Origin: a virus
Virus record (IMG/VR): IMGVR_UViG_3300031957_000529
Span: 1 to 24,532 of that record
DNA: 24,532 nucleotides
Reading direction: 5' to 3' (one strand)
This document shows, one piece after another, positions 129 through 24,532 of this stretch (position 1 is its first letter; every line of letters begins with the position of its first letter). Below the pieces are notes generated by a model. It was given only the letters and a program-made list of their open reading frames with translations, made no database searches and had not been told where the DNA came from. The position numbers and the translations under genes were made by a program.

Positions 129-809
129 ATGGCGTATGATTTTCTCAGCTTGACCAACGATGTTGCTAAACGTTTAAACGAAACAGAATTGACATCCGCA
201 AACTTTGCTACAGCAACAGGGTTTTATTCTGCAATTAAAGAAGCTGTAAACTCTGCAATTCGGCATGTTAATCAGTCTCATTTTGGCTGGCCCTTTAACC
301 ACAATGTTTACGAACAAACGTTAACCGCAGGTATAACTCGTTATCCTATCCCAACGCAAGCAAAGTACGTAGACTTCGACACTTACAGAGTTCGCCGCAA
401 CACTACTTTGGGTATAGGACGAGCAGAACATTTAACACAACTATCCTACGATGAGTATGTAGATCGATATATTGACCAAGAGGATGAGACTGATGTTACT
501 AAGGGTGCAGCACCTCAACTTGTGTTTCGGACACAAAATGCAGAATTTGGTGTAGTTCCTATGCCTGACAAAGCATACCAAGTTGATTTTGAATACTTCA
601 TGGACCCCGTTGACTTAATTCTCAATACAGATGTTCCTACAATTCCAGAACGGTTTCGTCACGTTATTATTGATGGTGCCATGTACTACGCCTACATGTT
701 TCGTGACAACATAGAGATGGCTTCAGTGTCACAGCGCAAATTTGATGAAGGTATCAAGCAGATGAGAACTGTAACTGTCAACGAAAACGTTTACATGAGA
801 GCATCGTAG
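129..809 (+). CDS. Head-tail adaptor (SU10 adaptor / tail tubular A-like)
   Basis: A 226-residue protein likely to form the adaptor ring between portal and tail nozzle. The N-terminus (DFLSLTNDVAKRLNE) followed by an alpha-helical stretch and FGWPFNH, and the later PTIPERFRHVIIDGAMYYAYM segment near residues 172-192, resemble phage adaptor proteins of the SU10 / T7 gp11 type, where a helical bundle carries a small beta domain. Length fits that family. It starts three bases after the preceding stop; a GAGGA lies about 14 bases upstream, a long spacing. It is followed three bases later by the nozzle gene, the usual adaptor-nozzle order. Assignment is from recognised sequence pattern and synteny, not a search. 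Confidence 0.72.
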   Translation: MAYDFLSLTNDVAKRLNETELTSANFATATGFYSAIKEAVNSAIRHVNQSHFGWPFNHNVYEQTLTAGITRYPIPTQAKYVDFDTYRVRRNTTLGIGRAEHLTQLSYDEYVDRYIDQEDETDVTKGAAPQLVFRTQNAEFGVVPMPDKAYQVDFEYFMDPVDLILNTDVPTIPERFRHVIIDGAMYYAYMFRDNIEMASVSQRKFDEGIKQMRTVTVNENVYMRAS

Positions 810-812
810 AGT

Positions 813-2780: not shown

Positions 2781-2795
2781 AGGAAGGATATAAAG

Positions 2796-5219: not shown

Positions 5220-5221
5220 TA

Positions 5222-5446
5222 ATGGATTTAGTCCACATCATAGATACCCTAATCGGTATAGTCGTAATGGGCGGTGCGTGGTTTCTTTCTGGCATGACAA
5301 AGGAACAGAAGCGTATAGAGATATTGCTCAATCGTACCCGTGAAGAATACGTGACCCGTAGCGAGGTTAGGGAAGACATGAGCCGTGTGATGGAAGCACT
5401 GCATCGTGTTGAAGATAAGCTAGACCGCGTTTTACAGAAAGATTAG
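5222..5446 (+). CDS. Small membrane-anchored coiled-coil protein (holin or spanin-like candidate)
   Basis: A 74-residue protein with one predicted membrane segment at about residues 6-23 (IIDTLIGIVVMGGAWFLSGM), then a charged amphipathic helix to the C-terminus (EQKRIEILLNRTREEYVTR, then VMEALHRVEDKLDRVL). A single N-terminal membrane helix plus a cytoplasmic or periplasmic coiled coil is seen in small phage lysis and XhlA-like proteins, and also in small virion proteins. It starts two bases after the fibre stop and ends three bases before the next gene, so it is translated with structural genes. No signal-peptide cleavage site, lipobox or catalytic motif is visible. The function is not established. 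Confidence 0.7.
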   Translation: MDLVHIIDTLIGIVVMGGAWFLSGMTKEQKRIEILLNRTREEYVTRSEVREDMSRVMEALHRVEDKLDRVLQKD

Positions 5447-5449
5447 TAG

Positions 5450-6766
5450 ATGGCTGTTACAGAAGAAGAAGCAAAGAAGAAGATGCTCGACCAAGCTGAT
5501 CAAAAGAAGCTTGATGCCGAACTTACCTTTACTCCTATTGATCAATCGGTTGAACCGAACGAACTTTTAGATGAATCACAAAAAACAATAGAGGCACCAC
5601 TTGTTGTTCCCCCCGCTGAAATCGACACATCTGCCTATTATCAAGCTGCTCCTACAGCGACTGGTCCTGCAGCGGGGTATCTACCAACCACTGCTGCAGA
5701 CAAAGTAGGTGCTGCACAAGCTGCACAGGGAACAGTGTCTAATAACGCCCTGATGCAAGCCCAGCAGGGGTCGGTTTCTCCCGATAGCTTGGCAAAGGCT
5801 GCAACAGCAGACTTAGACCCTAGAGCAACTACACAATTTCAGATGGGCCAACTCATGGCAACCATCGAAGACGGCAAGCCTCTTCCTGCTTGGGCTGCAC
5901 CCCAAGTACGCGCCGTGTCATCCCTGATGGCACAACGGGGGTTGGGATCGAGTTCTATGGCTGCTGCAGCTATGGTTCAGTCTGTTATGGAGTCTGGAAT
6001 TCCAATTGCGGCAAATGATGCAAGTAAGTATGCAACTATTCAGCTTCAAAACCTAAACAACGAGCAGCAAGCTGCTTTACAAAATGCTGCGGCCTACGCT
6101 GCTATGGATATGGCAAACCTAAACAATAGACAGCAAGCTGCATCACAAAACGCCAAGACCTTTTTGTCTATGGATTTGCAAAATCTCTCTAATGAACAAC
6201 AATCCAATGTAATTACATTCCAAAGCAAGGTTGCAGCCTTGATGTCAGATGCTGCTGCAGACAACGCGGCAAAACAGTTCAACGCAAAGTCACAAAACGA
6301 AGTTGATATGTTCTTTGCTGAGTTGGGTGCTACAATCACCAACGCTACCTTGAATCGCAAAGCTTCCCTAGAACAATTCAACGTGAGTCAAAAAACTGCC
6401 GTAGATGAGTTCAATGCTCAGATGCAAACGACCCGCGATCAGTTCAATGCAAACATGCGTATGCAAGTTGATCAGAGTAATGTGAACTGGCGTAGGCAGG
6501 TAAACACCTCAAACACTGCCGCAACGAATGAAGCAAACCGACAAAATATTTTAAATCTGTTAGGTATTCAGCAAAATGCAATGAACAATATATGGCAGGC
6601 ATACCGTGATCAAGCTTCGTGGAATATGAAATCATCTGAAAATGCAAAAGACAGAGCGCACAATGCAGCTATGCAATCCGCAGCAATTGCAGCAGACAAA
6701 GATATGTACGACACTAAATATGATGACTATCTAATGAGTGAAGTCATCGACAATATATTTGGATAA
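5450..6766 (+). CDS. Hendecad-repeat internal virion (ejection-type) protein
   Basis: A 438-residue protein rich in Ala, Gln, Asn and Met. Residues 1-45 are charged and helical, and 50-120 are Ala/Thr/Pro-rich and probably flexible. From about 199 to 362 the sequence repeats with an 11-residue period. Three 22-residue copies come first (xxNLxNxQQA...MD at 199, 221 and 243). Hendecads follow, several opening with (D/E)(Q/E)FN (for example 308, 319 and 330). Eleven-residue periodicity predicts long right-handed or straight helical bundles, as in phage proteins that line a DNA-ejection channel. Position after the fibre and before the very large proteins suggests a T7 gp14-like ejection role, which is an inference. 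There is no enzyme motif. Confidence 0.65.
   Translation: MAVTEEEAKKKMLDQADQKKLDAELTFTPIDQSVEPNELLDESQKTIEAPLVVPPAEIDTSAYYQAAPTATGPAAGYLPTTAADKVGAAQAAQGTVSNNALMQAQQGSVSPDSLAKAATADLDPRATTQFQMGQLMATIEDGKPLPAWAAPQVRAVSSLMAQRGLGSSSMAAAAMVQSVMESGIPIAANDASKYATIQLQNLNNEQQAALQNAAAYAAMDMANLNNRQQAASQNAKTFLSMDLQNLSNEQQSNVITFQSKVAALMSDAAADNAAKQFNAKSQNEVDMFFAELGATITNATLNRKASLEQFNVSQKTAVDEFNAQMQTTRDQFNANMRMQVDQSNVNWRRQVNTSNTAATNEANRQNILNLLGIQQNAMNNIWQAYRDQASWNMKSSENAKDRAHNAAMQSAAIAADKDMYDTKYDDYLMSEVIDNIFG
6044..6535 (+). repeat. Hendecad (11-residue) repeat array in the internal virion protein
   Basis: The encoded residues 199-362 can be written in 11- and 22-residue units almost without a break. Units NLNNEQQA, NLNNRQQA and NLSNEQQS are spaced exactly 22 residues apart, and later units EQFNVSQKTAV, DEFNAQMQTTR, DQFNANMRMQV and DQSNVNWRRQV follow each other directly. 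Nucleotide identity between copies is partial. Confidence 0.75.
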
Positions 6767-6780
6767 GAAAGCGATAACTA

Positions 6781-7389
6781 ATGGCTAAATTTTGGGAACA
6801 GAAGTGGTTTAAGACAGGCGTTGCTTTAGTTGGCGCGAACGTTGCTGGGGAATATTTGTTTGGAGATAGCGATTTTGGATTCTCAGGCGGAGAAGAAACC
6901 TCGTATTTTACAGGAGACAACCTCGCTGCAAAAGGATTGAATTACTTTGGTGTTACTCCCTTCGGAAACACCGCTGTAGGTTCCGCTGTTAAGGGATTCT
7001 ACGATGACTACGTTCCAGACTGGTTACAAGACAACATTTCAAGTGATAACGTTAAACAGGCATCGGCCTCGTTCCTGAATATGTTCGGAGACACGGGTCA
7101 GATGCCGTCGGGAAAAAGGACTACCCAAGCTAGATCCATTAAATCAGATACCAACTTCCAAGCAGGACAGGCTGGACAGATACCACTAGGTAAAAATGGA
7201 AGAGTTGGTAACGCCTTGCAATCACCAAAGATGCAAGCTTATTTAGCGCAGCACGTACGAGCAAGCAAGATCCCCCAGCGTATTCTTGCTCAAACCAGAT
7301 CGACAGGAAGTACAACATTGGGCAGAGTCAGCGTGAAGCGCACCGCAACACGAACTCCTTCCTATAGTAAAGATGCAAGGACAGGTTAG
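6781..7389 (+). CDS. Unknown virion-module protein, 202 residues
   Basis: I do not recognise this protein. The N-terminus (MAKFWEQKWFKTGVALVGAN) has a basic-aromatic start and a short hydrophobic stretch. It is followed by Gly/Phe-rich acidic sequence (FGDSDFGFSGGEE) and a C-terminal half that is Arg/Lys/Ser/Thr-rich and strongly basic (SVKRTATRTPSYSKDARTG). The mixture suggests a small DNA- or membrane-contacting virion protein. It lies between the hendecad protein and a 182-residue unknown, with gaps of 14 and 4 bases. The ribosome-binding signal is weak (AAGAAAG). No catalytic motif is visible. Confidence 0.6.
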   Translation: MAKFWEQKWFKTGVALVGANVAGEYLFGDSDFGFSGGEETSYFTGDNLAAKGLNYFGVTPFGNTAVGSAVKGFYDDYVPDWLQDNISSDNVKQASASFLNMFGDTGQMPSGKRTTQARSIKSDTNFQAGQAGQIPLGKNGRVGNALQSPKMQAYLAQHVRASKIPQRILAQTRSTGSTTLGRVSVKRTATRTPSYSKDARTG

Positions 7390-7393
7390 AAAC

Positions 7394-7942
7394 ATGGCTT
7401 TTGATAAAATTAACGCTCTTTCTGCACCACCGGGAAACTCCCTTACTGACGAGCCGGGGAAATGGGCTTGGGAACAGCCACCTATCTATGCAGACCCAGA
7501 CGATGCAGTCGATTATGTAACAGAAGCAATCGATGACAACCCGCAACAACGGGAAGGAATCTTAAAGATGCTTCTTGCTGGCATCACTGTAGAAGAGTTA
7601 GTTAATCAGGTATCATTCAAGGGATTTATGCAGGGATATTACACTCCTGACGTAGCAGAATTGATCAAGCCTGCAGTCGGTATCTTTTTGTACAACATGG
7701 CTCTCGAAGAAGGTTTCGAACCAAAGATGTTCGTTGAAAAAGAAGAGGAAGAAGAGGTCGATGACGTTGCATTCTTTAACATCTTAAAGCAGCGTAACCC
7801 AGAGTTGTACCTCAAGATGAACGAAGAAGTAAATAGGCAGCAACGCATGGAAGCAGACGACTTTATTGAAAGTGCGTACGGTCCAGTCGAGCAGCCCGAA
7901 GAAGCGTCGGTTTCGTTCTTGACAACTGAGGAGTCAAAATAA
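7394..7942 (+). CDS. Unknown acidic virion-module protein, 182 residues
   Basis: An acidic, largely helical protein (MAFDKINALSAPPGNS start) with a very acidic patch (VEKEEEEEVDDVAF) at about residues 115-128 and a C-terminus rich in Glu. An in-frame ATG exists 21 bases earlier at 7373, but it would overlap the preceding gene by 17 bases. The ATG at 7394 sits four bases after that stop and gives a normal MAFDK start, so I chose it. The stop shares a base with the ATG of the next gene (TAATG), so translation is probably coupled. The segment AVGIFLYNMALEEGF could pack against another virion protein. No family is recognised. Confidence 0.62.
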   Translation: MAFDKINALSAPPGNSLTDEPGKWAWEQPPIYADPDDAVDYVTEAIDDNPQQREGILKMLLAGITVEELVNQVSFKGFMQGYYTPDVAELIKPAVGIFLYNMALEEGFEPKMFVEKEEEEEVDDVAFFNILKQRNPELYLKMNEEVNRQQRMEADDFIESAYGPVEQPEEASVSFLTTEESK

Positions 7943-10851
7943 TGGCTGGATTTGAAAAGCTTTTAAAACTTGGTCTTCTTGCTGGAAGCGCAATGTACAA
8001 GAAAGACAAGGACGAAACCAAGCTACGCAAAGAGGAAGCAAAACAACTTGCCCTAGACAAAGCTGCTGCTGCACAAAAAATACGTGAAGCTGAAGAAAAA
8101 GAGCGGGTACGTCGTGACGAAAATGCTCCTCGCCTGATATACAAGACTCCAGACGGTGTGTGGGGAGAGCACATGATCGGAAGCCCTCGAATGCTTCCAA
8201 AGGGTGCAAAAGTAGTAAAAACAGGAACAATCAAAAATGGTTGGCAAGCTTACACAGGCGAATCCAAGATTGAAAACCTTCGTAACTACAACGGAAATCC
8301 TCTTCCCGAATCACAGTTACGAAATATCTACGGTCCGCGCTATGGCATAATAGACATTAACAAACTTCATCCTGTCGTGGGTAATGTTGTTGATGGAAAA
8401 CTCATGCCATTCGACTCAGGTTTTATAAAAGCTATGCGGGGTCCGGCAAAAATTACCAACGTGGATGAGTTTTACATCGGCGGAAAAAAGGTAGCGGACG
8501 AAGCAGAAGCAATTAGGATAAACAAAGAAACCGGTGATTCAATTCGTCACGTTATGAAAAAATTTGAAAATGGGCAGTTGGTTAGCCAGTCTCAAGTAGA
8601 CTACGAAGAGCCGGGAAAAACTCCGGGAGAAGACTATTATTTTGTTACCTTAGATAATGGGATGACCGTCAAACGAAGAGACGAACAATCGTTTATAGAT
8701 AATGGGTATGATAAATCTGACATTCAGCAAGGAAAATTTGTTGGTGACCGGCTTGTAAGTCAACCCTTGAGATCGGCAAGTGTTTCTTCCGCAATCGAAT
8801 ACGAGATGAAAGATGGCTCTACAAAACTCAGTACAGACCCTGATTTTACAGATGCGGACAGAAAAAAAGCAATCAGAGAAACTCGCGTAGAAATCAGCCC
8901 AGACGGAAAGTCGGTTAAGGCTCTTGCTAGTTCAACGTCAAGAACTCCCAAAGATACTGCCGCTACTGCACGGGCTTTGGAAATGTCCAAGTATTCAAAC
9001 TACATGACAATAGGGACAGATACTATTATCGGGGCAAAAGACTCTCACAGCATTTTCGAAAAGGCAAATTCCTTAAATGGTTCTGTGATAGATAACTTGC
9101 AAATTATTAACAGTACAGAGGGTAAGGCTGCAGAGTTCGTATCAAAATTTGGACCTACATTCAAGCAACGTTTAGATACCGACCCAAACTTAAAAGCATT
9201 GAAATCCGATCTTCCATCAGGTATAGTTTTATCCCATAAAGAGCAGATGGTCAGAGCAGGTTTTGCAAATGTGCTACAAGTAAAAGGCATGGAGCAGTTC
9301 CTCTTGAGTTTAGATATGCAGGGAAATGCAGACATGGCTGCACGTATCCAGCAGACCCTGACTACCGAAAATCCCAATGCAGCGGTTGTTGTAGCGAATG
9401 AGCCTGTAATTAAAGAGGGTGAAACCGACCCTTTTGCGAGTATAGTTTACGGAAAAGCTGCATCAGAGAAGTACGCACCGTTTATTAAAAACACGCTATA
9501 TACCACTCTTCTCAATGCTACGAACAATGCAGAGAAGGCACAGAACTTGTTGTCTACCTTAATTGCAGACAAGCGAGATGCTTTGGGCAATCTAGTCCAA
9601 CGAGCAGATGGGCTTGGTCCTGTAAACGCTGAAAACCAACCCATGCTAGATAACCTGATGTCCATGTCAACTAATATCCTTGTTGCTGGGACTGATACTC
9701 GTAAACCCATTACTGAGTTAGACGCATTCATTGCAACAATAAACTCTACTGATCCCGAAAACGATATTGTGCTTGCTGCAGTTGATGCCCCAACTAAAAA
9801 GAACATAGCAAACAAGTTCACCGCTATGGTTGGTGGAGATTTGGAATCTGGCGTGATGACAGTTCGAAGCTTGATCAGTGTGGGTGGACCGCGAGTTCAA
9901 ACTCTCTTGGCCCAACAGTACGGACTCGATGGCAGCGCACAAGGAAAACAAAGACGTAACGCATTCCTCACACAAAAAGAGTCTGCCAACAGGGGTACAG
10001 GTGCTGCTAAATCTGCGCTAGGTTCCTATTTTGATCCCGTAACAGGTAGACCTTATGATTCTTCTGCCGTAGCCAACTTTGATTTGACAATAGATGGCTT
10101 GCAGTATTTGGCTGGAGCATTTGGTGAAAGAGGTGCACAGTTTCTGAGTAAGATTTCTGGCGGCACAGTTGGAGCAGACTTGGATACTGCTGCTGAATCA
10201 TTGGTCGATTCTCTCATAGGTCGAGGATTTAAGCAGGGAGACATAAAAACAACAGCATCTGCACGAGAATTACTAGTTCAAGATGCCAAAGCGGTTACTG
10301 CACAAATAAAAGCGGCAGGTAACGACATGGAAAAACGTGCGATTGCTACTCGTAACTTCCACATCACTGTCCTTGCTTATGAGCTATCTGCCGCTATTCA
10401 GGGTGGATCAGGCGGAAGAACCATTTCTGACCAAGACGTTCAGTTGATCCTGTCTGCTTTACGTCAGGGGACATTTGACAGCCCAGACGCACAACGAGCA
10501 TCCCTCATGGCGGCAAAGGACATGCTAGATAGAATTAGAATCCGTGCAAAATACTTGAGTAGCACTAACTTCTTAGATAACGCTTCCATTGCTATTGCAG
10601 ATGACATGCTTGCTACTTCAGATGTTGTTATCACCCCAGCGTCCGCAGCTAATGAGCTACGATCACAGTTGGGCGGAACCGGCTTCAGTGCGGAAGATAA
10701 AGTAAAAAATATGTCTGATAGGCAAATTATTATGATGATGAATAGAAACTTGCCTGCAGGAGAAAAACTAAAAGAGGGTGATACTATCGACAAAAATTCA
10801 CCAGCATATCAACTGCTGCTTAAATCTTTGAAAAAAGGACAGAGTTCGTAA
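7942..10851 (+). CDS. Large internal virion protein, 969 residues, unknown function
   Basis: The N-terminus is a basic amphipathic helix (MAGFEKLLKLGLLAGSAMYKK) followed by a highly charged coiled-coil stretch at about 18-65. The remainder is a mixed helical protein without catalytic signatures I can identify. I looked for lytic transglycosylase, peptidase and amidase motifs and saw none. Size and position, directly before an even larger protein and after the hendecad protein, mirror the gp14-gp15-gp16 ejection set of T7-like phages, so a DNA-ejection or core protein is the best inference. The start shares a base with the previous stop, and one base separates its stop from the next ATG. Confidence 0.6.
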   Translation: MAGFEKLLKLGLLAGSAMYKKDKDETKLRKEEAKQLALDKAAAAQKIREAEEKERVRRDENAPRLIYKTPDGVWGEHMIGSPRMLPKGAKVVKTGTIKNGWQAYTGESKIENLRNYNGNPLPESQLRNIYGPRYGIIDINKLHPVVGNVVDGKLMPFDSGFIKAMRGPAKITNVDEFYIGGKKVADEAEAIRINKETGDSIRHVMKKFENGQLVSQSQVDYEEPGKTPGEDYYFVTLDNGMTVKRRDEQSFIDNGYDKSDIQQGKFVGDRLVSQPLRSASVSSAIEYEMKDGSTKLSTDPDFTDADRKKAIRETRVEISPDGKSVKALASSTSRTPKDTAATARALEMSKYSNYMTIGTDTIIGAKDSHSIFEKANSLNGSVIDNLQIINSTEGKAAEFVSKFGPTFKQRLDTDPNLKALKSDLPSGIVLSHKEQMVRAGFANVLQVKGMEQFLLSLDMQGNADMAARIQQTLTTENPNAAVVVANEPVIKEGETDPFASIVYGKAASEKYAPFIKNTLYTTLLNATNNAEKAQNLLSTLIADKRDALGNLVQRADGLGPVNAENQPMLDNLMSMSTNILVAGTDTRKPITELDAFIATINSTDPENDIVLAAVDAPTKKNIANKFTAMVGGDLESGVMTVRSLISVGGPRVQTLLAQQYGLDGSAQGKQRRNAFLTQKESANRGTGAAKSALGSYFDPVTGRPYDSSAVANFDLTIDGLQYLAGAFGERGAQFLSKISGGTVGADLDTAAESLVDSLIGRGFKQGDIKTTASARELLVQDAKAVTAQIKAAGNDMEKRAIATRNFHITVLAYELSAAIQGGSGGRTISDQDVQLILSALRQGTFDSPDAQRASLMAAKDMLDRIRIRAKYLSSTNFLDNASIAIADDMLATSDVVITPASAANELRSQLGGTGFSAEDKVKNMSDRQIIMMMNRNLPAGEKLKEGDTIDKNSPAYQLLLKSLKKGQSS

Positions 10852-10852
10852 C

Positions 10853-13800
10853 ATGGCTGAAGGATACTCTATTTTCGATAAGCTACCCAAGTCAACGCTT
10901 GGTATTGCTGAAACAATACTTTCGCCTGCTGCTGCAGCCCTGAGTCCTATGAGCATTACAAATACGCAGACGGAACCGACAGGCATTGGAAAGAAAACTT
11001 CCAGAAGGGGTGGTCGAGGATTTTCCCAAAGCAACTCCGCTTTCTACGATTGGGGAATCGGGAAGATATCTTTCCCCAGAGCCTGCCCTAACGATGGACC
11101 CATCAAAAGTAGAGATAGATTATAGCGATCCGTTTCTTGGCGCACAAGCTATTACTAAGCGTCGTCGCATAATTGAAAATCCTGAACTATTAACGCCCAT
11201 CATTTCTGTTAAAGATTCTGATTTGGTTGATGAAGACCTGATGAGTGCCGACTACGTAACGACTAAACGCTTAACTGAAAGTGGTAATCCTGAAACGTTT
11301 GCTTTCAGTGCCTTTTTAGAAGGAGAAGATACCCTCGAAGCACGTCAAAAATTGGTAGATGAAATTCAAGGAACAAAACTAGGGTACTACGTTGACGATG
11401 ACGCAAGGCAAGAGGTTGACATACGATACATGACTGCCGTGTACGATGAAAAGTACGAAAAGGTCTTGGAAAACATTGACAAGAAGCTCGTCGGTATTCC
11501 CTTCATTAACGACGAAGCTAGATCACGTTACATGTTAAACATGGGTTATGATGAAGATACTAATCGTGCCATCTTTGCTAAACAGTTCGATAACTTCCTT
11601 ATCAATCAAGGAGTGAAAAGTCAACGTACTCGTGCAGGCATCATCTTACACAGCGTAAACCTTCCTCAGTTCGGGGGAGTCGGTTTTGGTGATCCGTCCA
11701 AACTCGTCGGTATCACCAATGAGACTTTGAAGTACGTAGTTGCGGCTGGTCCATACCTCGTAGGCGAAGCCTTCGGAGCAGTATCAGAGGGTTTGAAAGT
11801 CGGTGACTACAACCTATCAGACTCAACTGATCGTGAGAAGTGGTTGAGCACCTTCATTCCTAGTATGCCTGCTTTGATTCAGGACAGATACACGCAGTTA
11901 AACTTGGATGTGCCATACCACGTAGCGGAAGCTATTTCACGTCGGTTTTCCGGCTATGGAACACAAGCTGCAGCGACTGCAATCGAGGTAGCCGGACCTA
12001 CCAAACTTGCTACCTTGAGAAAGGTACAGGCTGGTAAAAAGGAAATGCAATACTTCGGCGACTTCGAAGCGCGGTATCGTAAGAAGTTTCGTGACGCAGA
12101 GCCTGAAGATGTACTGCAGGCATTCCAAGCCATGAGAAAGAAAACTGTTAACGTTGGTATAGGGAAGTACAGCTTCCCCGTCGACTTAACCAAAGCAAAA
12201 GACATCAAGCTTATTGGTGGCATTGCAAACATCCCAGCAAAAGCTATTGCAGTGGTCAACGGTCTTCGTACATCTAGTCGGTTTAAGAATGGTATGGAAC
12301 TGACAGATGCGGCACAGATTGCATCTAATCGCATCGAAGTACGTAACATGTCTCAGTACTACAGGAACCTGCACAACCAAAAAAATGGTATTATCAATCG
12401 TGCAAAGCAAGCAGGCAGGGACTTGAATCCAGACGAAGCAAGACGTTTGGACGAAGTAGCTAGAAAGATTGAGATCACAAAAGCAGATCTTCGAAAGACT
12501 GTGGTACGATCAGAAACACCTAAGTTTATCCGGGAGTCCAACGTACAGGATGCTTATGTTATAGTTGGTGCTGCAACAGCCAATCAAGCCTTTGAAATCT
12601 ACGGTGGCGATCCTATGATGGGAGAGTTTATAGGAGCACTAGGCGGAATCGCGTACGGTCTTGTCAAAGGCGGCAAAGATGCAAAAAAGCTATTAAAAAA
12701 GTTTGATCTCGACAACGTAACAGACAAACAACTCAATATTGCTGAACTCGTACTTAGCAACATGAAGAACTTTGATCCTGAGTTCCAAGAGGCACTGAAA
12801 ACACGAGTAAAGTATTTCAACGGACTCAAGCAAGAGCTTGTAGCGGCTGGCGTTAATCCAGAGGTTTTAGATCGTTCTGTGTCTCGAATACTAGGCTTGT
12901 CCCTTCTACAAACCCTAGAAGAAGGTTCTGCACTCGACTTACACGGTCCTCAAGTTGCAGCGTTTAACGCTCAAACTCAAACCTTACATACAAACCTACT
13001 CACTCAACAAAAGTTTGTGTCTGAGCTTCGTACTGTTATGCAAAACCTTGCCCGTACAGAAGGCGTAGACATCGAAGGAAACGCCATAAAGAAACTGTAC
13101 GATACCGTCGAAGCTGCCGTAACCTATGCAGATGGCACAACCGCTCAACTAGCAGATGACTTAGAAGTTATCGGCAGAAGCTACGAAACTAGCGTAAAGG
13201 GCATGATTCTAGGGTCAGACGACATATACGATCATTTAGATGAAGCATCTACGACTGAACTAAGTAGTGCATTAGACAGTCTTACAAAGCACAATATTTC
13301 TAGGATAGATCAGAGTAGTGTTGTGGCAATTAGGGATGAGGTTGTAAGAACACAAGACGGTATAGCCGGAGCCATCAAGGATAAAGCAACTCAGATTGCT
13401 CGTATTCTTCCGACGCAGGGCGACGTAAACAAGCAGGTTAACAAGATTCTCCCTGATGGAACAATTATCCGTCCGGGACGTGAGCCAGCAAAAGCACGTG
13501 ACATTCAAACATCAGGGGATGCTCTTGCAGCGTTACTTGAAAGTAGAAACGTACGGGAGCGAGAGATTGCCGCTGCACCGTTTCGTCAGTTAGACAACGC
13601 TCAATTTCGTACTGCAGATGACCAAGTTATTATAGGAAAAGCCACAACAGATGCCGGTCCCGTGCTAGATAGCATGTTTGATGTACTGGGCACTGCAGAA
13701 GGAACCACCCTGCTTTTGGAGATGTCAGGTAAAACGATGTCTCGCTCAACAAGCGGCAAGATGTTTGCATTCTTGGATGAAGCGGCAGGAGCCTTTATCT

Positions 13801-15614
13801 TGGATGTTGCTCAACGACAAGGAAAAAATGCAGATGAGATTGTTGAGGATGCGTTGACTGCTGCTCGACAAGCAAACGATCCCGCTACGATAAAGTTGCT
13901 AAATGATAAACGTATTCCACAAGACTTGTTGGTTGCACAGCTACTCAGAAAAGATTTGCAATTAGATGGGGAAGATATCGGGGTTCTTCCTATCTCCTTC
14001 CAACAAGCTAAAGAGATGTCTGATGCCTTAAATCAAATAAGCTTCAAGACCCAAGACTCTACAGCAAAAATGAAAATAGACAACGTTCAAAATATTGCAG
14101 ACGGACTCATGGATTCCTTCGAAGTTCAGCTAGAAACAGGCCAACGAGTTTCTGTGGGCCAGTTGTTTATTAAACAAGAGGACGGATCACTACGTTCTAC
14201 TCAGGAGGTCTTGGCTGAAGGAAAGTCTCGTTGGACGGAGTACAAGCGTCGGTTCTACAACGATGAAAATGTAAGTAATTGGTTAGGGTGGAAAAATAAG
14301 GATGCTCGTTTACCTACTGGTGTTTCTTCGGACTACCCGCTAGGTATAGACTACGGTAAAAATGCTCCTGTAGGATGGTTAGACTTCAATAAAATTGCCG
14401 ACATGAAGGACGTAGACAAAACAAAGTTTACACGCTCCCTTTCCGAAACAATAGGTGACCTAGATGCAAACGGAAACTATCGCATACAATTGAACAGTGA
14501 AAATGGACAGGCTACTCGCGCAATCCTAGAGGCACGTAGTCGCGAATGGCTCACCGAAACTGTGACGAGCGGAAAGCCTATCGACTTCAACGACCTTCGC
14601 AGGAAGATGAATAGTCTGCAGGATACCTTTATAGGTGTAACAGACAAGGGTACTGAGGTGCGTCTCCTAGACTTAGATAGGGTTATGACGGATGTGTTCC
14701 CTGACTTCGGAAAGAACAGCGTCGATCCTGAGTACTTTGAAGCGGGAATGAAAAAGCTACAGAATGCTTCAAAGGGGGAAAAGGCTCGTGTCGTACGAGA
14801 AGCCAAGAAGATACAGCAGGGTATTAGCGAAAGCAAACAGTTCCTGAGACAATACTCTCAAGGGGTGTTAGACTCTGGTAGCGTCGGGTCGGTTTTGATA
14901 TCCGGTGGCGTAGGACGCTTGAACGACCTAAAGAAGCATCTCAAGTCCTTAAAGCGAAGCGAAGAAGAAACCAACGAAATAATCAAGTCACTTCTGGTCC
15001 AAGAGATTGATCGTAAGGCGTTCAATCCGACAGGTCGATACACTATAGACCCGTCTGATCAAAACCTGATGGTTCCGAATGTGGACTTGGATATTGAATC
15101 CCTAAAGCAATTCATGGGATTCAACGACCCTAGTACAGCAGAAGTTGTAAGAGAAGTACTTGGAGATAAAGCCTACGATACCTACAGAAGCATCATAAGC
15201 TTCACAGCGAACGAAGCTGCAGAGTCTGCAGGACGCACGAACATATCGGGCATCCCTCGCAAATTCTCTGTAGAGAGCTACATCAGTCGCTTTTACGCTG
15301 TCAATCGTGGTGTGGTTAGCTTTAGGTACGTTGGTACAGAAGCAGTCTTGCAGCAGATGAGGCAGAAGAACATGTCGCTTTTGACTGCAGCCCTGACCGA
15401 TCCGAAGGTAGGCTCCCTGTTGATGGAGATGGTAGATACAGGAAAGCCGCTACCTATGGACAAGGATCGTCAGCTACTTGAATTGCTGGTTATAGCTACA
15501 GAGCGTTACGACAACTGGCGTGAAACAGCTAAAGACCCTATAAAAGTTACCAGTGACTTTGGGCATGAATTTGTTTACAACCCCACAATGAATTACTTTG
15601 GACTCTCACCATAA
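10853..15614 (+). CDS. Giant internal virion protein with a +1 frame break near its N-terminus
   Basis: The longest protein of the window. The ATG at 10853 follows the previous stop by one base and has an AGGAC about 11 bases upstream. That frame encodes a plausible N-terminus (MAEGYSIFDKLPKSTLGIAE) but ends at 11125 after turning into Arg/Gly/Ser-rich sequence. The main frame, open from 10953 to 15614, has only a poor TTG (10986) as an early start. Dropping one A from the run at 10994-10997 joins them as ...GIGKK-LPEGVVEDF... and gives about 1,586 residues. The body is mostly helical, with two Gly/Ala-rich hydrophobic stretches near 11715-11795 and 12555-12680 that could insert into a membrane, as in T7 gp16-like ejection proteins. 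No lytic enzyme motif is seen. If the frame is genuinely broken, translation could begin at 10986 or at ATG 11094. Confidence 0.6.
10994..10997 (+). other. Apparent +1 frame-break site (A4 run) in the giant virion gene
   Basis: The sequence reads GGA AAG AAA ACT in the upstream frame, and CTT CCA GAA GGG in the downstream frame beginning at 10998. Removing one A restores one continuous frame. A homopolymer is a usual place for an assembly indel. It is not a canonical -1 slippery heptamer, and the needed shift is +1 (or -2). Confidence 0.6.
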
Positions 15615-15624
15615 GGATGAAACT

Positions 15625-15939
15625 ATGAAAACATATAATAACGGCCCTCGCAAGGGAATGATGTACGGTGGCATGTCTCGTCGCAAGCCGATGATGTACG
15701 GTGGCATGGCAAAGAAGCCCCGTAAAAAGGCTCAGATGGGTGGAAGCATGACCACAACCCAAAAGCAACAAAACCAACAGATGGCAGGCATGATGCCTAT
15801 GCAGCCGATGAATATGCAACGGATGGCAGAAGGTGGCAAGCTAAAGATGGTAGAAAAAGATGGAAAGAAAGTTCCGTTCTACGCAGCCGACGGTGTTGGT
15901 AAGATGATGTACGGCGGAAAGGCAAAGAAGCGTGGCTAG
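15625..15939 (+). CDS. Small Met/Gly/Lys-rich basic protein with MMYGG repeats
   Basis: A 104-residue strongly basic protein. MMYGG occurs three times (residues about 12, 23 and 97), mostly followed by Met or Lys and then basic residues. The middle is Gln/Met-rich (MAGMMPMQPMNMQRM). An upstream TTG in the same frame (15598) overlaps the giant gene, but AAGGA at 15613-15617 sits seven bases before the ATG at 15625, which fixes the start. Small basic Met/Gly-rich proteins of this style occur at the end of virion modules in marine phages. They may bind DNA or sit in the capsid interior, but I know of no proven function. The segment KLKMVEKDGKKVPFYAADG looks folded, unlike the rest. Confidence 0.7.
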   Translation: MKTYNNGPRKGMMYGGMSRRKPMMYGGMAKKPRKKAQMGGSMTTTQKQQNQQMAGMMPMQPMNMQRMAEGGKLKMVEKDGKKVPFYAADGVGKMMYGGKAKKRG

Positions 15940-15943
15940 TAAA

Positions 15944-16087
15944 ATGGTACCAGCCCCAAAAGGCTATCACTGGATGAAGCAAAAGGCTGGTGGATACAAG
16001 CTAATGAAAAACCCCTCAACCGGCTATAAGCGGCATAAGGGGTCTTCAACTCGTGCTAGGTTTGAGGTACAAAAAATACACAAATAA
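15944..16087 (+). CDS. 47-residue basic protein, last gene of the rightward block
   Basis: An ATG four bases after the preceding stop opens 47 codons ending at TAA 16085-16087. The product (MVPAPKGYHWMKQKAGGYKL, then MKNPSTGYKRHKGSS and RARFEVQKIHK) is rich in Lys, Gly and aromatic residues, with a repeated GY(H/K) pattern, and resembles small GYHWMK-type proteins of marine phages. Composition matches the preceding gene, and spacing matches the rest of the block. Its middle codons also contain the leftward terminator described separately, and its stop is two bases from the stop of the opposing gene. The function is unknown. Confidence 0.62.
   Translation: MVPAPKGYHWMKQKAGGYKLMKNPSTGYKRHKGSSTRARFEVQKIHK
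16007..16043 (-). terminator. Intrinsic terminator for the leftward transcript, inside the opposing 47-residue gene
   Basis: Read on the minus strand, ACCCCT (16043-16038) pairs with AGGGGT (16016-16011) around a 21-base loop that can form a further short CCG/CGG stem. It is followed at once by a TTTTT run (16011-16007). This lies about 50 bases past the stop of the last leftward gene, where a terminator is expected. On the plus strand no T run follows, so it is directional. Confidence 0.72.
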
Positions 16088-16089
16088 AT

Positions 16090-16311
16090 TCAGACGTAGT
16101 TTCTAGACTTGTCCAACATCTCGTTCCCCATCGATCTAATATACCGAAGCAGGGATGCTATAGAGTGTGCACCTTCATACTCTGGCATCCCTGTATTTAT
16201 TACAGCTTCTAATTGTTCCGGCTGTACACCATCCATATTTATTTCTACGTTTCCATCTTGTTTTAAATATACTGTGAATTGAAACAGATTAGCTTTGTGC
16301 TGTTTTGCCAT
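16090..16311 (-). CDS. Unknown 73-residue protein, last gene of the leftward block
   Basis: A short protein (MAKQHKANLFQFTVYLKQDG start) that appears to have an N-terminal beta hairpin (FQFTVYLKQDGNVEINMDG) followed by two helices (EQLEAVINTG and SIASLLRYIRSMGNEMLDKS). No motif is recognised. It overlaps the end of the preceding PD-(D/E)XK gene by 23 bases and its TGA is two bases from the stop of the opposing rightward block. The coding DNA also contains the rightward terminator hairpin. MAKQHKAN is a normal start. Confidence 0.62.
   Translation of the reverse strand: MAKQHKANLFQFTVYLKQDGNVEINMDGVQPEQLEAVINTGMPEYEGAHSIASLLRYIRSMGNEMLDKSRNYV
16150..16202 (+). terminator. Candidate intrinsic terminator for the rightward transcript, inside the opposing 73-residue gene
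   Basis: CAGGGATGC (16150-16158) pairs perfectly with GCATCCCTG (16185-16193). Inside it AGAGT (16162-16166) pairs with ACTCT (16179-16183), giving a long hairpin with one internal loop. The plus-strand continuation TATTTATTA is T-rich, while the minus-strand continuation is not. It lies about 60 bases after the last rightward stop. The tail is interrupted by A, so termination may be partial. Confidence 0.55.
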
Positions 16312-16780
16312 TGACGTTCTCTAGTTCTTGTATTGCTAGGTTGTAACAGTCGGCTCTAAATGTGAATCCGTTAGTCGGATCGACATCTCCCCTGCTATAT
16401 CGTGTGGCTTTTTTATAGAACGTTTCTTTTGGTATCTCTCCCAAGATCCAAGCCTTGCTATGGTCAGTTAAAATACGGACAAAAACATAGCTATCACAAT
16501 CCTGCTTTGAACCGTGTGCGGCTACAGAACAGTCGTAGTTTGGTGAAGGGGTGGTGTTGCATCGCTTTGTCTTTACGTCTACACGTCGGTTTTTAACCAA
16601 GAGATCAAAGTCCTTGCTGTTGACTGCTTCGCCACCAGCGTAATCTTCTACAATTATTTCTCCGATTGCCCCAACAACGTTACTAAGACTGCCCGTGATG
16701 CTGCCCTGTAAGTTTCCTACAGAGGCGGCTTTCTTTTTGGCACGAGCTAGGATATCAGGTGTTATCTTGATTTGTATCAT
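16289..16780 (-). CDS. PD-(D/E)XK nuclease-fold protein
   Basis: A 163-residue protein with the order of acidic residues of the restriction-endonuclease-like fold: GAIGEIIVEDY (Glu41), then KDFDLLV (Asp57/Asp59), then RVDVKTK (Asp68, Lys70). The GxxGE helix followed by DFDLxV and VDVKT is typical of small phage and restriction-type PD-(D/E)XK proteins. It could be a nuclease acting on host or recombining DNA, or a nuclease relative without activity. It is the third candidate nuclease in this operon, after endonuclease I and the Cas4-like exonuclease. The start overlaps the previous gene by 26 bases; no strong ribosome-binding site precedes the ATG. The target is unknown. Confidence 0.6.
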   Translation of the reverse strand: MIQIKITPDILARAKKKAASVGNLQGSITGSLSNVVGAIGEIIVEDYAGGEAVNSKDFDLLVKNRRVDVKTKRCNTTPSPNYDCSVAAHGSKQDCDSYVFVRILTDHSKAWILGEIPKETFYKKATRYSRGDVDPTNGFTFRADCYNLAIQELENVNGKTAQS

Positions 16781-16985: not shown

Positions 16986-17136
16986 TGTCTTCCTCCTCAT
17001 CTCTAGGTAAGTATACTAAAACAAACGCCCCACAGTTTGAGCAACTAAGGTTGGTGACCATAGAATGATCTGGATCATCCTCTGTATCATGGTCACCGCC
17101 CCAAGTTAAGGCATATGTACAGTACCAACAGTTCAT
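16978..17136 (-). CDS. 52-residue zinc-ribbon protein
   Basis: An ATG overlapping the RNR stop (ATGA) opens 52 codons ending at TAA 16978-16980. The product starts MNCWYCTYALTWGGDHD and later has LSCSNCGAFVLVY, giving two CxxC pairs (Cys3/Cys6 and Cys32/Cys35) separated by 25 residues. This is a treble-clef or zinc-ribbon spacing that should bind one zinc. The C-terminus is acidic (RDEEEDIG). The 4-base overlap with the RNR gene and with typical coupling in this operon argues that it is real. It may be a regulatory or accessory nucleic-acid-binding protein; no function is known to me. The in-frame C-terminus overlaps the next gene. Confidence 0.75.
   Translation of the reverse strand: MNCWYCTYALTWGGDHDTEDDPDHSMVTNLSCSNCGAFVLVYLPRDEEEDIG
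16992..16997 (-). promoter_or_regulatory. Perfect AGGAGG ribosome-binding site deciding a TTG start
   Basis: AGGAGG on the minus strand ends six bases before TTG 16985-16983, the ideal spacing. It lies inside the last codons of the 52-residue zinc-ribbon gene (the Asp-Glu-Glu-Glu-Asp end). It favours the TTG over the in-frame ATG at 17000. Confidence 0.65.
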
Positions 17137-19061
17137 GCTGCTGTCAAGTCCACAACTTCACAAACCCCTGCAGTACAGGCAAGTTCACGGGAGCCTGTAG
17201 TATTATCTTCTTTCTCAAAGTCTGTTAACTTTTGCCAATCTATATTGACATTGCCATATGTTAGCATCCATTCGTTATACTCATCTTCGTCAATGTCTTG
17301 ATACACGGCTTGTACATAGGTGTGATCATCGTAAGGAAAGAATGAAACACCAGATGCTATATCAAAGTTTTCATACACCCACGCACCAACTTCCATCCAC
17401 TCGTGTTCTTTAACAGTAATACTAACAGATGGCTTATGCTCACAAAAGTACAAAGCGTACGTTTTCCACAATTCAAGCTGTTCTATAGAAGACATTGCTG
17501 TACGTGTTATAGCACCAATAGGAGCTTTTGTAGGAAAGCTAAATACCGTAGTAGAGTCAGGCTGGTTATGCTCTGGTTCGTTGTACACGCCAGTGTTAAT
17601 CAAGAATTGTGTGAGTGGGTCTTTGTTGTCTCCGCGCACTGTACGAATATAGTAGTCATTGTGTCGAGCATGAATCCCACTAGCAGCATCCACAAGTTGA
17701 GACACTGTTCCAGATGGTTTTACACACGTGATTGCAACGCTTTGGTTTATGCCTAGAGACTTAGCAAATCCTTTGTTCACCTCTACTGCGTGTTCTCGCA
17801 TTTCGGTTAGCCATCTCTTACTGTCTACGTTCTTTGAAAGAATAGGATGATCCATAATACCTGTTAAAGACACACCAAGAAGACGCTCTTCTTCCGCGTT
17901 GTCTTTCCATACTTTTCTAAGGTACTTGTAGTCAGTCAAAGTGGACTGCATCGTACCTAATATAGTAGCTATACGTATCTTTTCTTTCAAGTCATCTAGA
18001 GAATCGGATTCACGAACCACACACTCTGACAAATTACAAAAACTGTATGGGCGTAAGATTATCTCACTACAAGGATTCGTACCCCACATATGGCCTGTCT
18101 GCCGTCTGCCATTACGAGCAACGTGCTTGTCTGCTGCTTCACGATTGAACATACCACGCTCACCAGATTTACTAGTGTACAGGGACACCCACTCTTCCAT
18201 AAATGTGCCAATGTCTGGCTTACGATCGTAGGCTACAGAGTTGTTAGCCAACGCACGTTGTTTCTCTGTCTCCCACCACTTTCCTGCCTTTGCACGAGCC
18301 ATGTCTCTATCTTCTATATCAGACAAACTAATTAACGCTGAACGGCGAACGCCCCCTACAACGACGATTTCCCCTACCTTACACATGAGATCGTGACATT
18401 CTATAGGAAGTAGTTTACGACCTTGTGCCTTCTTAAAAATGTCCACTGTAAAGTTAAACAGTTCAACTAATGGTTGTGGGCCACTAGCACGACCACCCAT
18501 AATTTTTAAACGCTCACCTGCCGCACGAACACCGGATACGTCCCATGTGGGGGTCTGACCTGCGTAAAGCAACGCAATCAATTCACGATAGGCTTTTGCC
18601 CACCCCGGTTTGCTGTCTCCTACCTTAATTACAGTATCTGACTCATTAAAATTATCTGACACAACAGGAAGCTTATTAACGTTATCTTTTTCAACGCTAA
18701 AACCAACACCAGTACCACACATCAATATGTACATACACTCATCAAATGCACGAGGGCTATCTACAGGGATATAGCTACAGTTGTAGCCGCACACATTATC
18801 ACGTTCCAAAGCATCACCAGCAGTCATCATTGCTCTCATACTAGGCATGACTTTCAGACTCAAGATTGCATCCTCAATATCGTTCTTTAATGAGTTAGAT
18901 ATCTTGTAGTTATGCTTGCTATACACATGATCAGACATAAAGTTAACATATCGTGATACAGTTTCATCCCAATTCTCTCTGCGCTGCTCATCGTCTAACC
19001 AACGAGCATAGCGTGACTTGTGAATGAATTGTTGATATGGTGTTGGCAACATGTTGTTCAT
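17133..19061 (-). CDS. nrdJ: Class II (adenosylcobalamin-dependent) monomeric ribonucleotide reductase
   Basis: Makes deoxyribonucleotides from ribonucleotides for phage DNA synthesis, using a B12-generated thiyl radical and no oxygen or second subunit. Seen in the sequence: NPCSEI with Cys331/Glu333, the thiyl and acid pair; FCNLSE with Cys342 and an N-terminal CGYNC (Cys91/Cys95), of which one residue should form the active-site disulfide; VKPSGTVSQL; GERGMFN; and a C-terminal CTAGVC pair (Cys629/Cys634) that relays electrons. The pattern is closest to the Lactobacillus leichmannii triphosphate reductase; 642 residues is somewhat shorter. A TTG in the same frame (19079) has no ribosome-binding site, while GAGG lies nine bases before ATG 19061, four bases past the preceding stop. 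The host must supply or import cobalamin. Confidence 0.9.
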   Translation of the reverse strand: MNNMLPTPYQQFIHKSRYARWLDDEQRRENWDETVSRYVNFMSDHVYSKHNYKISNSLKNDIEDAILSLKVMPSMRAMMTAGDALERDNVCGYNCSYIPVDSPRAFDECMYILMCGTGVGFSVEKDNVNKLPVVSDNFNESDTVIKVGDSKPGWAKAYRELIALLYAGQTPTWDVSGVRAAGERLKIMGGRASGPQPLVELFNFTVDIFKKAQGRKLLPIECHDLMCKVGEIVVVGGVRRSALISLSDIEDRDMARAKAGKWWETEKQRALANNSVAYDRKPDIGTFMEEWVSLYTSKSGERGMFNREAADKHVARNGRRQTGHMWGTNPCSEIILRPYSFCNLSECVVRESDSLDDLKEKIRIATILGTMQSTLTDYKYLRKVWKDNAEEERLLGVSLTGIMDHPILSKNVDSKRWLTEMREHAVEVNKGFAKSLGINQSVAITCVKPSGTVSQLVDAASGIHARHNDYYIRTVRGDNKDPLTQFLINTGVYNEPEHNQPDSTTVFSFPTKAPIGAITRTAMSSIEQLELWKTYALYFCEHKPSVSITVKEHEWMEVGAWVYENFDIASGVSFFPYDDHTYVQAVYQDIDEDEYNEWMLTYGNVNIDWQKLTDFEKEDNTTGSRELACTAGVCEVVDLTAA

Positions 19062-19065
19062 GTTT

Positions 19066-19362
19066 TTATTCCTCTTCAAGTTGGTTTTTAGTTGTTAATA
19101 GTTCTTCTGCGTACCAGCTACATTTGGAGATGTCTTCGTCTCCGTTTTTGTGCTTTTCTCGCCATGTGTATTTGATGATATTTCCCTTGCAGAATCCTCT
19201 GAACTCCTCTGGAGACAACGCCGCCTTGATTGCGTCAATGCACTGGATACCTGCTTTCGTATAGTGTGGCGGATTGTTGACAATATCTATTCCCCCGTAA
19301 GCCATCTTACCGGCCTGTTCGTTTTCATCTTCCATCGTCTTCATGTATGCTTCGTGTCTCAT
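19066..19362 (-). CDS. DUF3310 protein, T7 gp1.7-like nucleotide kinase candidate
   Basis: A 98-residue protein. After a variable N-terminus it has [17 protein letters not shown], then [18 protein letters not shown] and [13 protein letters not shown], the defining DUF3310 pattern found in T7 gp1.7 and many phages. T7 gp1.7 is a nucleoside monophosphate kinase, so a role in dNTP supply fits the neighbouring MazG-like and RNR genes; activity of this protein is inferred. The frame is open further upstream (to 19485), but that part is antisense-like Arg-rich sequence inside the MazG gene. The ATG at 19362 overlaps the MazG stop as ATGA, so I start there. Confidence 0.82.
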
Positions 19363-22553: not shown

Positions 22554-24095
22554 CTACAGGTCTACTTCTGTCAAGTCAAGCCAATTATTACCTATTTTTA
22601 ATTCTATTCCTACAGGCATGTCATAGGCCACATTATACCTTCTAATTGTCTCTTCAGGTAACGACATCATTGCTTCTGTCATCAGATTGATACAAATATC
22701 TTTTTCACTTGGATGCACATCGACCACGATTGAATCGTGTACAGTGTTGCATATAACGGAAATAAGTTTTCTGTCAACAAACAATCTTTGCAAGCTTACA
22801 AGTGCAATCGGTAGCAGGTCAGCAGTAGCAAATCCTTGTACCGGATAGTTACAAATTGCAGTCCGATTTGTAGCCGTACCCCACTTAGTCCACCGCGCAT
22901 CTGGGAAGGCGTATTGCCTGCCACTTGGAAGAGTGATTAATCGCCGCTGGACGGCCTCTCGTTGGAGTTGTTCATGCCAAGTGGTAACTCCTTCATACTT
23001 ATCCTTAAAGGCTCTGTAGTAGCGTTGTTGGGAGTCGGTTCCGGTGACACCGCCGTATAGCGGTTTGAAGGTATGTGCCTTTGCTTCTTGTCGGCTACAC
23101 CCGATAATATTAGCAGTATATTGGTGAACATCTGTACCCTTCTCCACATCTATGTAAGCTTGACTATCCTTTGCAAGAAACCCTGCTACCCGAAACTCTA
23201 ACTGCGAGTAATCCCCCTCAAGTATCTTGCCACCCGGAAAACGACTCTCGACAACCTTGCGTATAGCGAAGGTATTTCCACGTGGCATATTCTGAAAGTT
23301 AGGATTGCGGCTCGAAAGGCGACCCGTCGCCGTAACACACTGCATAAACTCTGGATGGATGAAACCATTTTCATCAACATTGTTTTTCATCCCTTCTACA
23401 AAAGTGGACAGGTAAGTACGAAGCGCATTATAGCGCACATAGGCAACAACAAACTCGTGGGCATCTCCCGACAAGTCGGTTTGTCGGTTTTCTAGGGTAA
23501 CCTTGTCGGTCTTGAATCCTGCAGATGCCGTGTCCATCGGGTCACGCGGAACCAACTTGAAGCCAGCAACCTCGCCGGTAGAAACATAGATAACTCCTGT
23601 CCCGCTACACGGCTTACAGATACGAATAGCCTTGCCCAGTGTTCCGTCCTTCTTCAAGGGGCTAACGCGACCTTCACCGCGACAACTACCACACTGGCTA
23701 CCCCTCGTCTTATACACTACGTCTGTCATCCGGCGAACAGTCGAGTTGAACTCACTGCGCTTCATGCGGGTACGAAGCTTTGGCTTCATAGTCGAGCCAC
23801 GCATCTCGTGACCCAAGTTAAATATAAGTGACCAAGATGGCTTGTCCTTTACTCTACGTGAGTATAACAAGACGCTGCGATCATCAGGGCTGGAGAGATT
23901 GACAGGGGTATCACCCATAGCTTCTTTAGCCAAACGATCCAAGCGAACCTCTAATTCATCCATCTCCTGTTGGTATTCTATTTCAATTTCTTCTAGGGTT
24001 TCTATGTTGATCTTCAATCCTTGCTGTTCGATACGAGCAAGAGTGTCAGTCATCTCAAGCGAAAGCTTTAACGTCGGTATCAGTCCGGTGTTCAT
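22554..24095 (-). CDS. Family A DNA polymerase, polymerase part with DnaJ-like zinc finger
   Basis: The replicative polymerase core, 513 residues from the ATG at 24095. Seen in order: a thumb-like start (GLIPTLKLSLEMTDTLARIE); a DnaJ-type zinc finger with two CxxCxGxG motifs (Cys135/Cys138 and Cys160/Cys163); TATGRLSSRNPNFQN at 255-269; motif A GDYSQLEFR at 294-302; motif B (O-helix) RQEAKAHTFKPLYGG at 335-349, with Phe at the position of E. coli Phe762; and motif C VHDSIVVDV at 452-460, where Ser replaces the usual Glu of HDE. The 3'-5' exonuclease part is encoded just upstream in another frame. GAGGA lies eight bases before ATG 24095, so the part could be made alone. A 39-base gap separates it from the SSB gene. 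Confidence 0.9.
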   Translation of the reverse strand: MNTGLIPTLKLSLEMTDTLARIEQQGLKINIETLEEIEIEYQQEMDELEVRLDRLAKEAMGDTPVNLSSPDDRSVLLYSRRVKDKPSWSLIFNLGHEMRGSTMKPKLRTRMKRSEFNSTVRRMTDVVYKTRGSQCGSCRGEGRVSPLKKDGTLGKAIRICKPCSGTGVIYVSTGEVAGFKLVPRDPMDTASAGFKTDKVTLENRQTDLSGDAHEFVVAYVRYNALRTYLSTFVEGMKNNVDENGFIHPEFMQCVTATGRLSSRNPNFQNMPRGNTFAIRKVVESRFPGGKILEGDYSQLEFRVAGFLAKDSQAYIDVEKGTDVHQYTANIIGCSRQEAKAHTFKPLYGGVTGTDSQQRYYRAFKDKYEGVTTWHEQLQREAVQRRLITLPSGRQYAFPDARWTKWGTATNRTAICNYPVQGFATADLLPIALVSLQRLFVDRKLISVICNTVHDSIVVDVHPSEKDICINLMTEAMMSLPEETIRRYNVAYDMPVGIELKIGNNWLDLTEVDL

Positions 24096-24532
24096 TGTAT
24101 AGTTCCTCAAAGGTAGTGCCAAAGGCTTCAAGCTGTTTAAGTGCAATCTCTTCTGTAGCTAGTACGTCAGCTTTACCGTACTCTTCTACTATCTCCCACG
24201 GTATGTCGTAGAACGTCTTACCGCTTTTGAGGTACGGCTCCACAAGGTCTTTCTCCTTCTTGGTAACGTCATACTTTTCTGCAAGAGCAGCAAGTCCAAG
24301 AGGCCAACGCTGCGCCTTCGATAAAATATACTCAGCAACCATCGTATCATAAACGTGCCCCTCGTATTTAAATCCGCACTCTCTGATCCATGACAGATCA
24401 AACTTAATGTTTTGTCCCACAACAACGTCAGCCGTGTCAAGTTCCCGCTGGAATGTTTCGGCAGCAAAGTCGTAGGCTGGCCTGTCAGCGTGGGAGTAGC
24501 AATGATAGTGAACTGTCTTACCCAGCCACTTG
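24055..24532 (-). CDS. 3'-5' exonuclease domain of the DNA polymerase (partial, other frame)
   Basis: The open frame enters from the right edge (KWLGKTVHYHCYSHADRPAY) and carries the DEDDy proofreading motifs II and III: VVVGQNIKFDLSW (Asn and Asp) and YGKAD (Tyr and Asp); motif I must lie outside the window. It continues to LYNEH at 24088, where the polymerase frame begins with GLIPTLKL, exactly where family A polymerases continue. In its own frame it adds only ten more residues (RTDTDVKAFA) before TGA at 24055, overlapping the polymerase ATG by 41 bases. This is either a +1 frameshift, an indel, or a genuinely separate exonuclease subunit. Domain identity is certain enough; architecture is not. 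Confidence 0.85.
   Translation of the reverse strand, partial: KWLGKTVHYHCYSHADRPAYDFAAETFQRELDTADVVVGQNIKFDLSWIRECGFKYEGHVYDTMVAEYILSKAQRWPLGLAALAEKYDVTKKEKDLVEPYLKSGKTFYDIPWEIVEEYGKADVLATEEIALKQLEAFGTTFEELYNEHRTDTDVKAFA
24087..24088 (-). other. Apparent +1 frame-break between exonuclease and polymerase parts
   Basis: On the minus strand the exonuclease frame reads TAC AAT GAA CAC CGG and the polymerase frame reads GGA CTG ATA CCG. Skipping one C gives ...LYNEH-GLIPTLKL..., the expected family A sequence. No homopolymer longer than two is present. Confidence 0.55.
24104..24108 (-). promoter_or_regulatory. Internal ribosome-binding site before the polymerase ATG
   Basis: GAGGA on the minus strand, followed by ACTATACA and ATG 24095-24093. 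Eight-base spacing is good for initiation. It lies inside the exonuclease coding sequence (Glu-Glu codons), so it may be accidental, but it would permit separate translation of the polymerase part. Confidence 0.4.

Follow-up and report, generated by a model that had tools for sequence, protein, structure and literature searches.

The window analysed here, the whole stretch of 24,532 nucleotides, is a fragment of an HMO-2011-like marine phage from a 24.5-kb virus record. A rightward structural operon and a leftward operon, the latter including genes for a class II ribonucleotide reductase (RNR) and a family A DNA polymerase, meet head-on in this window (Table 1). The polymerase was assigned from its position relative to the annotated gene of HMO-2011 and from its own sequence rather than from a family search. 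As the earlier note had stated, the two operons leave no intergenic space, the open reading frames ending at 16087 and 16090. The last rightward gene encodes a 47-aa basic protein (..LMKNPSTGYKRHKGS..) and the last leftward gene a 73-aa protein (..GMPEYEGAHSIASLLRY..), and neither was matched in Pfam or PHROG. Among the annotated phages searched, no homologue of the 73-aa protein was found, and the 47-aa protein was matched only in pelagiphages and in Roseobacter phage CRP-901. In CRP-901, the homologous 47-aa gene is unannotated, lies in a one-way operon and does not exhibit the hairpin (OQ401623.1, 40955-41095). Elsewhere in the window, codons 33-47 of the RNR gene (18915-18959) exhibit low synonymous variation, the lowest 11-codon window reaching 0.21 of expectation (10-17 sequences), and no stable hairpin was found there on either strand.

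Table 1. Genes and terminator-like elements at and around the convergent junction
Feature	Position	Strand	Remark
Rightward structural operon	129-16087	+	Meets the leftward operon head-on
47-aa gene, last of the rightward operon	15944-16087, stop TAA	+	Holds the leftward terminator-like hairpin
Leftward intrinsic-terminator-like hairpin and U5	16007-16042	-	47 nt beyond the stop of its own operon
Gap between the convergent stops	16088-16089		Two bases
73-aa gene, last of the leftward operon	16311-16090, stop TGA	-	Holds the rightward terminator-like hairpin
Rightward intrinsic-terminator-like hairpin and T-rich tail TATTTATTA	16150-16202	+	62 nt beyond the stop of its own operon
163-aa gene, upstream of the 73-aa gene	16289-16780	-	Holds the second rightward hairpin
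Second rightward terminator-like hairpin, GCTGCCCTGTAAGTTTCCTACAGAGGCGGC and TTTCTTTTT	16700-16738	+	Inside the leftward 163-aa gene
Class II RNR gene	17133-19079	-	Within the leftward operon
Family A DNA polymerase gene	22554-24146 and beyond	-	Within the leftward operon

A scan based on folding, applied to the entire window on both strands, yielded 134 candidates consisting of a hairpin and a T tail. The rightward hairpin ranked first among these and the leftward hairpin third; each was found inside the last gene of the opposing operon, where the earlier note had placed it. On the leftward strand, the leftward hairpin reads CCCCTTATGCCGCTTATAGCCGGTTGAGGGG, extending from CCCCTTATGCCG to CCGGTTGAGGGG (16042 to 16012, minus strand), and is followed within the 47-aa gene by TTTTT at 16011-16007. 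Its stem comprises a CCCC/GGGG core and an inner CCG/CGG stem, and the folding energy of its 44-nt core, -21.4 kcal/mol, was attained in 4 of 1000 synonymous-codon resamplings. With a G+C-rich stem, an immediate U-rich tract and a position beyond the stop codon, it exhibits the sequence features of an intrinsic (Rho-independent) terminator. The same holds for the rightward hairpin (16150-16193), in which a 9-bp outer stem, CAGGGATGC/GCATCCCTG (16150-16158/16185-16193), encloses an 8-bp inner stem, but its tail, TATTTATTA, is imperfect. Its folding energy of -27.1 kcal/mol was not attained in any of 1000 resamplings. Neither junction hairpin was listed by a generic promoter and terminator consensus scan, which allowed loops of up to 8 nt. 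A known RNA family was rejected, as Rfam returned only sub-threshold chance matches and nothing above the gathering score. A bidirectional terminator was also rejected, given that each of the two window hairpins is flanked by a T-rich tail in just one direction, with CTTCGGTAT and TCTTCAACT as the opposite tails.

With regard to the rightward hairpin, relatives were drawn from IMG/VR contigs. In IMG/VR, 80 loci were found to encode the 73-aa protein. With the window included, the codons compared comprise 54 distinct sequences, of which 45, with at least 65% amino-acid identity, form the main clade. The stem core AGGGATGC/GCATCCCT is invariant in all 45 of these, while the flanking codons vary, and synonymous variation at codons 40-54 of the 73-aa gene is 0.21 of expectation, compared with 0.83 in the rest of the gene. 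A clade of 74-aa homologues, which aligns without gaps at this site, retains all nine pairs of the outer stem but builds them from different bases (AAGACTTGC/GCAGGTCTT). In four of the nine, both sides have changed with pairing kept, and 94.4% of the cells are paired, compared with 31-55% in controls in which the partner was slid by one to three columns. The hairpin of this clade is nearer to symmetrical than those of the window when the tails on both sides are compared. In the most distant 73-aa clade, the same place is occupied by a 13-bp stem in a shifted register, which contains two compensatory pairs and precedes a T-rich tail; this clade was counted alone, since its columns are not shared with the main clade. 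As the four compensatory pairs distinguish what are essentially two clades, the independent events are few.

Compared with synonymous resamples, the rightward hairpin has a mean z of -3.5 on the rightward strand and -2.7 on the other strand, and the rightward strand is the stabler one in nearly all of the 54 sequences. The inner stem contains 37 G-U but only 8 A-C cells, and T scores in the main clade average 2.3 on the rightward side and 1.3 on the other side. Taken together, the excess of G-U over A-C cells and the better rightward tail indicate that the rightward RNA is the main target of selection.

A second rightward hairpin, ranked second in the window scan and not mentioned in the earlier note, lies about 500 nt beyond the first and is kept in all homologues read. 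Its z value is -4.2 in the window and its mean z is -5.25 in relatives (16 distinct sequences); a synonymous-constraint scan recovered it independently. Folding energy gives no preference for the rightward strand, and it is the TTTCTTTTT tail that points to its direction. This hairpin is probably a backup terminator.

With regard to the leftward hairpin, the 47-aa gene is found in two settings, namely at convergent junctions and within the rightward operons of other phages. The hairpin was found in all 23 distinct sequences from the convergent context, compared with none of 13 codirectional copies. The convergent copies all carry AAAAACCCC...GGGG on the plus strand and a perfect U5 tail; the leftward RNA has a mean z of -3.8 and is the stabler strand in every one of them, whereas the mean z of the codirectional copies is +0.4 (13 sequences). 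Since the contrast between the two settings corresponds to a single change on the tree of the 47-aa gene, it counts once. Within the convergent set, 8 of 18 sequences have a compensatory A-U pair in place of C-G, and GGGG is retained as a block across a one-base shift, from AAG GGG to CGG GGT or AGG GGT. Several phages without the 47-aa gene were found to have another strong leftward hairpin and T tail in the rightward gene that replaces it. The best of these (L037 and L049, -17 and -19 kcal/mol, tail TTTTTTG) outscore all 134 window candidates when energy is multiplied by tail, and the weaker ones may be due to chance. In the most distant 73-aa clade, in which the rightward hairpin is re-registered, no convincing leftward terminator was found near the junction (L102-L114). 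The earlier note had made its proposal depend on the conservation of both stems among relatives, and the hairpin structures on both strands were found to be conserved there through sequence change, which is strong support for selection on each of them.

The distance between a hairpin and the stop of its own operon is 46-65 nt at most junctions. In E. coli, the trailing ribosome renders the terminator tR2 almost inactive when it directly follows a stop codon, and full efficiency requires a spacing of more than about 27-30 nt (PMC4824070); the distances at most junctions are greater than this. The convergent stops abut in the window, whereas in some relatives there is an overlap of a few bases. 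In four relatives (L016, L022, L025 and L141), a gene of 55-65 aa (MLFDLLDMYSRSPVYVVSEAVI...) is inserted between the 47-aa-type gene and the leftward operon. The terminator hairpins persist in this arrangement, the leftward one lying about 275 nt beyond its own stop where a 55-aa gene is inserted. The overlap between the two transcripts, proposed in the earlier note to be 100-200 bases, is predicted to be about 198 nt in the window, at the top of that range, and 195-209 nt in most relatives. With the inserted gene it doubles to 422-435 nt, because the leftward terminator remains in the 47-aa gene. The length of the overlap, as predicted from these sequences, does not look like a selected trait.

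Phages of the HMO-2011 type, namely Puniceispirillum phage HMO-2011 and Roseobacter phages CRP-1, CRP-2, CRP-13, CRP-207, CRP-345 and CRP-603, share the genome plan of the window, in which a structural operon meets an operon encoding DNA polymerase and class II RNR. They differ from it in their small junction genes, and their RNR genes exhibit about 63-67% DNA identity to that of the window. Each of these seven cultured phages (L195-L201) carries a single compact, G+C-rich hairpin, flanked by A and T, in a gap of 22-157 nt; this hairpin is apparently a shared bidirectional terminator. In CRP-13 (L199), more terminator-like hairpins lie past the junction, at 2701-2730 (-) and 2754-2778 (+), within the leftward gene 2578-2829. 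Terminators that act in both directions between convergent genes are known from E. coli and Zymomonas (PMC7566282) and, like the elements in the window, they are located where two operons meet head-on and terminate both. They consist, however, of a single hairpin flanked by an A-tract and a U-tract, whereas the window exhibits two separate one-way hairpins and no gap.

The junction is most likely served by two separate, strand-specific intrinsic terminators in the absence of intergenic space. The predicted elements are conserved, lie in codons under synonymous constraint, exhibit compensatory changes and depend on gene context; from these patterns we infer that the hairpins would terminate RNA polymerase in vivo, as well as how efficiently they might do so. 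The rightward transcript of the structural genes would end at about 16200, after the hairpin antisense to the 73-aa gene, and the leftward transcript of the replication and RNR genes at about 16004-16007, after the hairpin antisense to the 47-aa gene. As each hairpin lies some 50-60 nt downstream of its own stop, beyond the cover of the trailing ribosome, it could fold in its own transcript, and the same DNA would be ordinary translated sequence in the opposing mRNA. Given that the stops abut, a terminator at a workable distance must sit inside the opposing gene. The stems would be kept in part by the choice among synonymous codons and in part by amino-acid changes that the protein tolerates. 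The second hairpin would probably catch read-through ahead of an antisense run through the RNR operon. The claim of the earlier note that the codons answer to both protein and RNA structure is supported by the synonymous constraint, the resampling and the compensatory changes.

As the tail of the rightward hairpin in the window is imperfect, this hairpin could be a 3'-end barrier that acts after termination by other means, rather than a terminator. The hairpin, and perhaps also the second one, would then be a protective stem, to which ends produced by Rho or otherwise are trimmed back by exonucleases. The stem is very strong, the U-tract is mediocre in both the window and the main clade, and the hairpin lies in untranslated RNA of the rightward transcript, all of which would suit this role. 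The T tails at the homologous site in the 74-aa and distant clades (TTTTTCC and ATTTCTTT) are more classical than that of the window, however, and the T scores of the main clade favour the rightward side; trimming would also leave the perfect U5 of the leftward hairpin in all 23 sequences unexplained. We consider this explanation unlikely.

A more elaborate version of the preferred reading, that of two strand-specific terminators, would regard the junction as a selected insulator with a tandem backup, which shields the replication operon from strong late antisense transcription, and in which duplex formation between the complementary 3' ends sets the time of the change from early to late mRNA; this seems improbable. 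The proposal of the earlier note, in which the complementary 3' ends pair and affect the stability of early and late mRNA, is still more doubtful; such a duplex, of about 198 nt, would resemble an excludon. The geometry makes overlap unavoidable, and regulatory overlaps between 3' UTRs have been described in bacteria (PMC7154746), where convergent transcripts are likewise complementary at their 3' ends. The excludon is defined by reciprocal regulation (PMC7154746), whereas the window is compared with it by predicted geometry only. Moreover, the predicted length of the overlap is not conserved, the cultured relatives with a shared intergenic hairpin would have little overlap, and early mRNA may seldom be present together with late mRNA. 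The conserved feature is the presence of one terminator for each strand.

It is very improbable that the hairpins act in the translated mRNA, by pausing or by translational control of the small genes, instead of terminating transcription of the opposite strand. They do lie within the coding sequence of small conserved genes, and complementary hairpins form there too, but these are weaker; the antisense strand is favoured by the G-U cells of the inner rightward stem and by the greater stability of the leftward hairpin on the leftward strand. The T tails sit on the antisense side, and the 47-aa gene is devoid of the hairpin away from convergent junctions. Chance combined with protein conservation, with the well-conserved motifs KNP..HKGS and GMPEYEGAHSIASLLR forcing complementary codons, can practically be dismissed, as codon resamples for the same amino acids almost never yield such folds, synonymous sites are frozen in the rightward stem and variable in its neighbours, and the same 47-aa protein occurs elsewhere without the hairpin. 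Protein conservation as the sole cause is contradicted by the synonymous resamples, which miss the observed energies.

Intrinsic terminators inside opposing coding sequence have been predicted at convergent overlaps in E. coli, where in 2 of 58 such overlaps each gene has its own, different terminator (Biol Direct 2007, PMC2174442). In the window as well, the predicted terminator of each gene lies inside the opposing coding sequence. This kind of arrangement was already known, and the phage locus is an unusually tidy and well-supported case of it. The E. coli set consists of predictions in a single genome, to which the phage lineage adds compensatory changes, synonymous constraint, the replacement of the hairpin together with the gene, and a tandem backup. 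A literature search, with most subscription papers outside its reach, found no phage precedent with comparative evidence. What appears to be new here is a comparatively well-supported phage example of embedded terminators, together with a putative tandem backup.

The comparison of relatives at this locus shows that, when genes are compacted at a head-on junction, terminators are moved into the opposing coding sequence, where the same bases satisfy the demands of both protein and RNA structure. The 47-aa gene, found at convergent junctions and in one-way operons, constitutes a natural experiment on the position that a terminator requires. Terminators embedded in this manner would escape prediction tools that ignore coding sequence, and antisense RNA structure is a possible source of synonymous constraint in phage genes.
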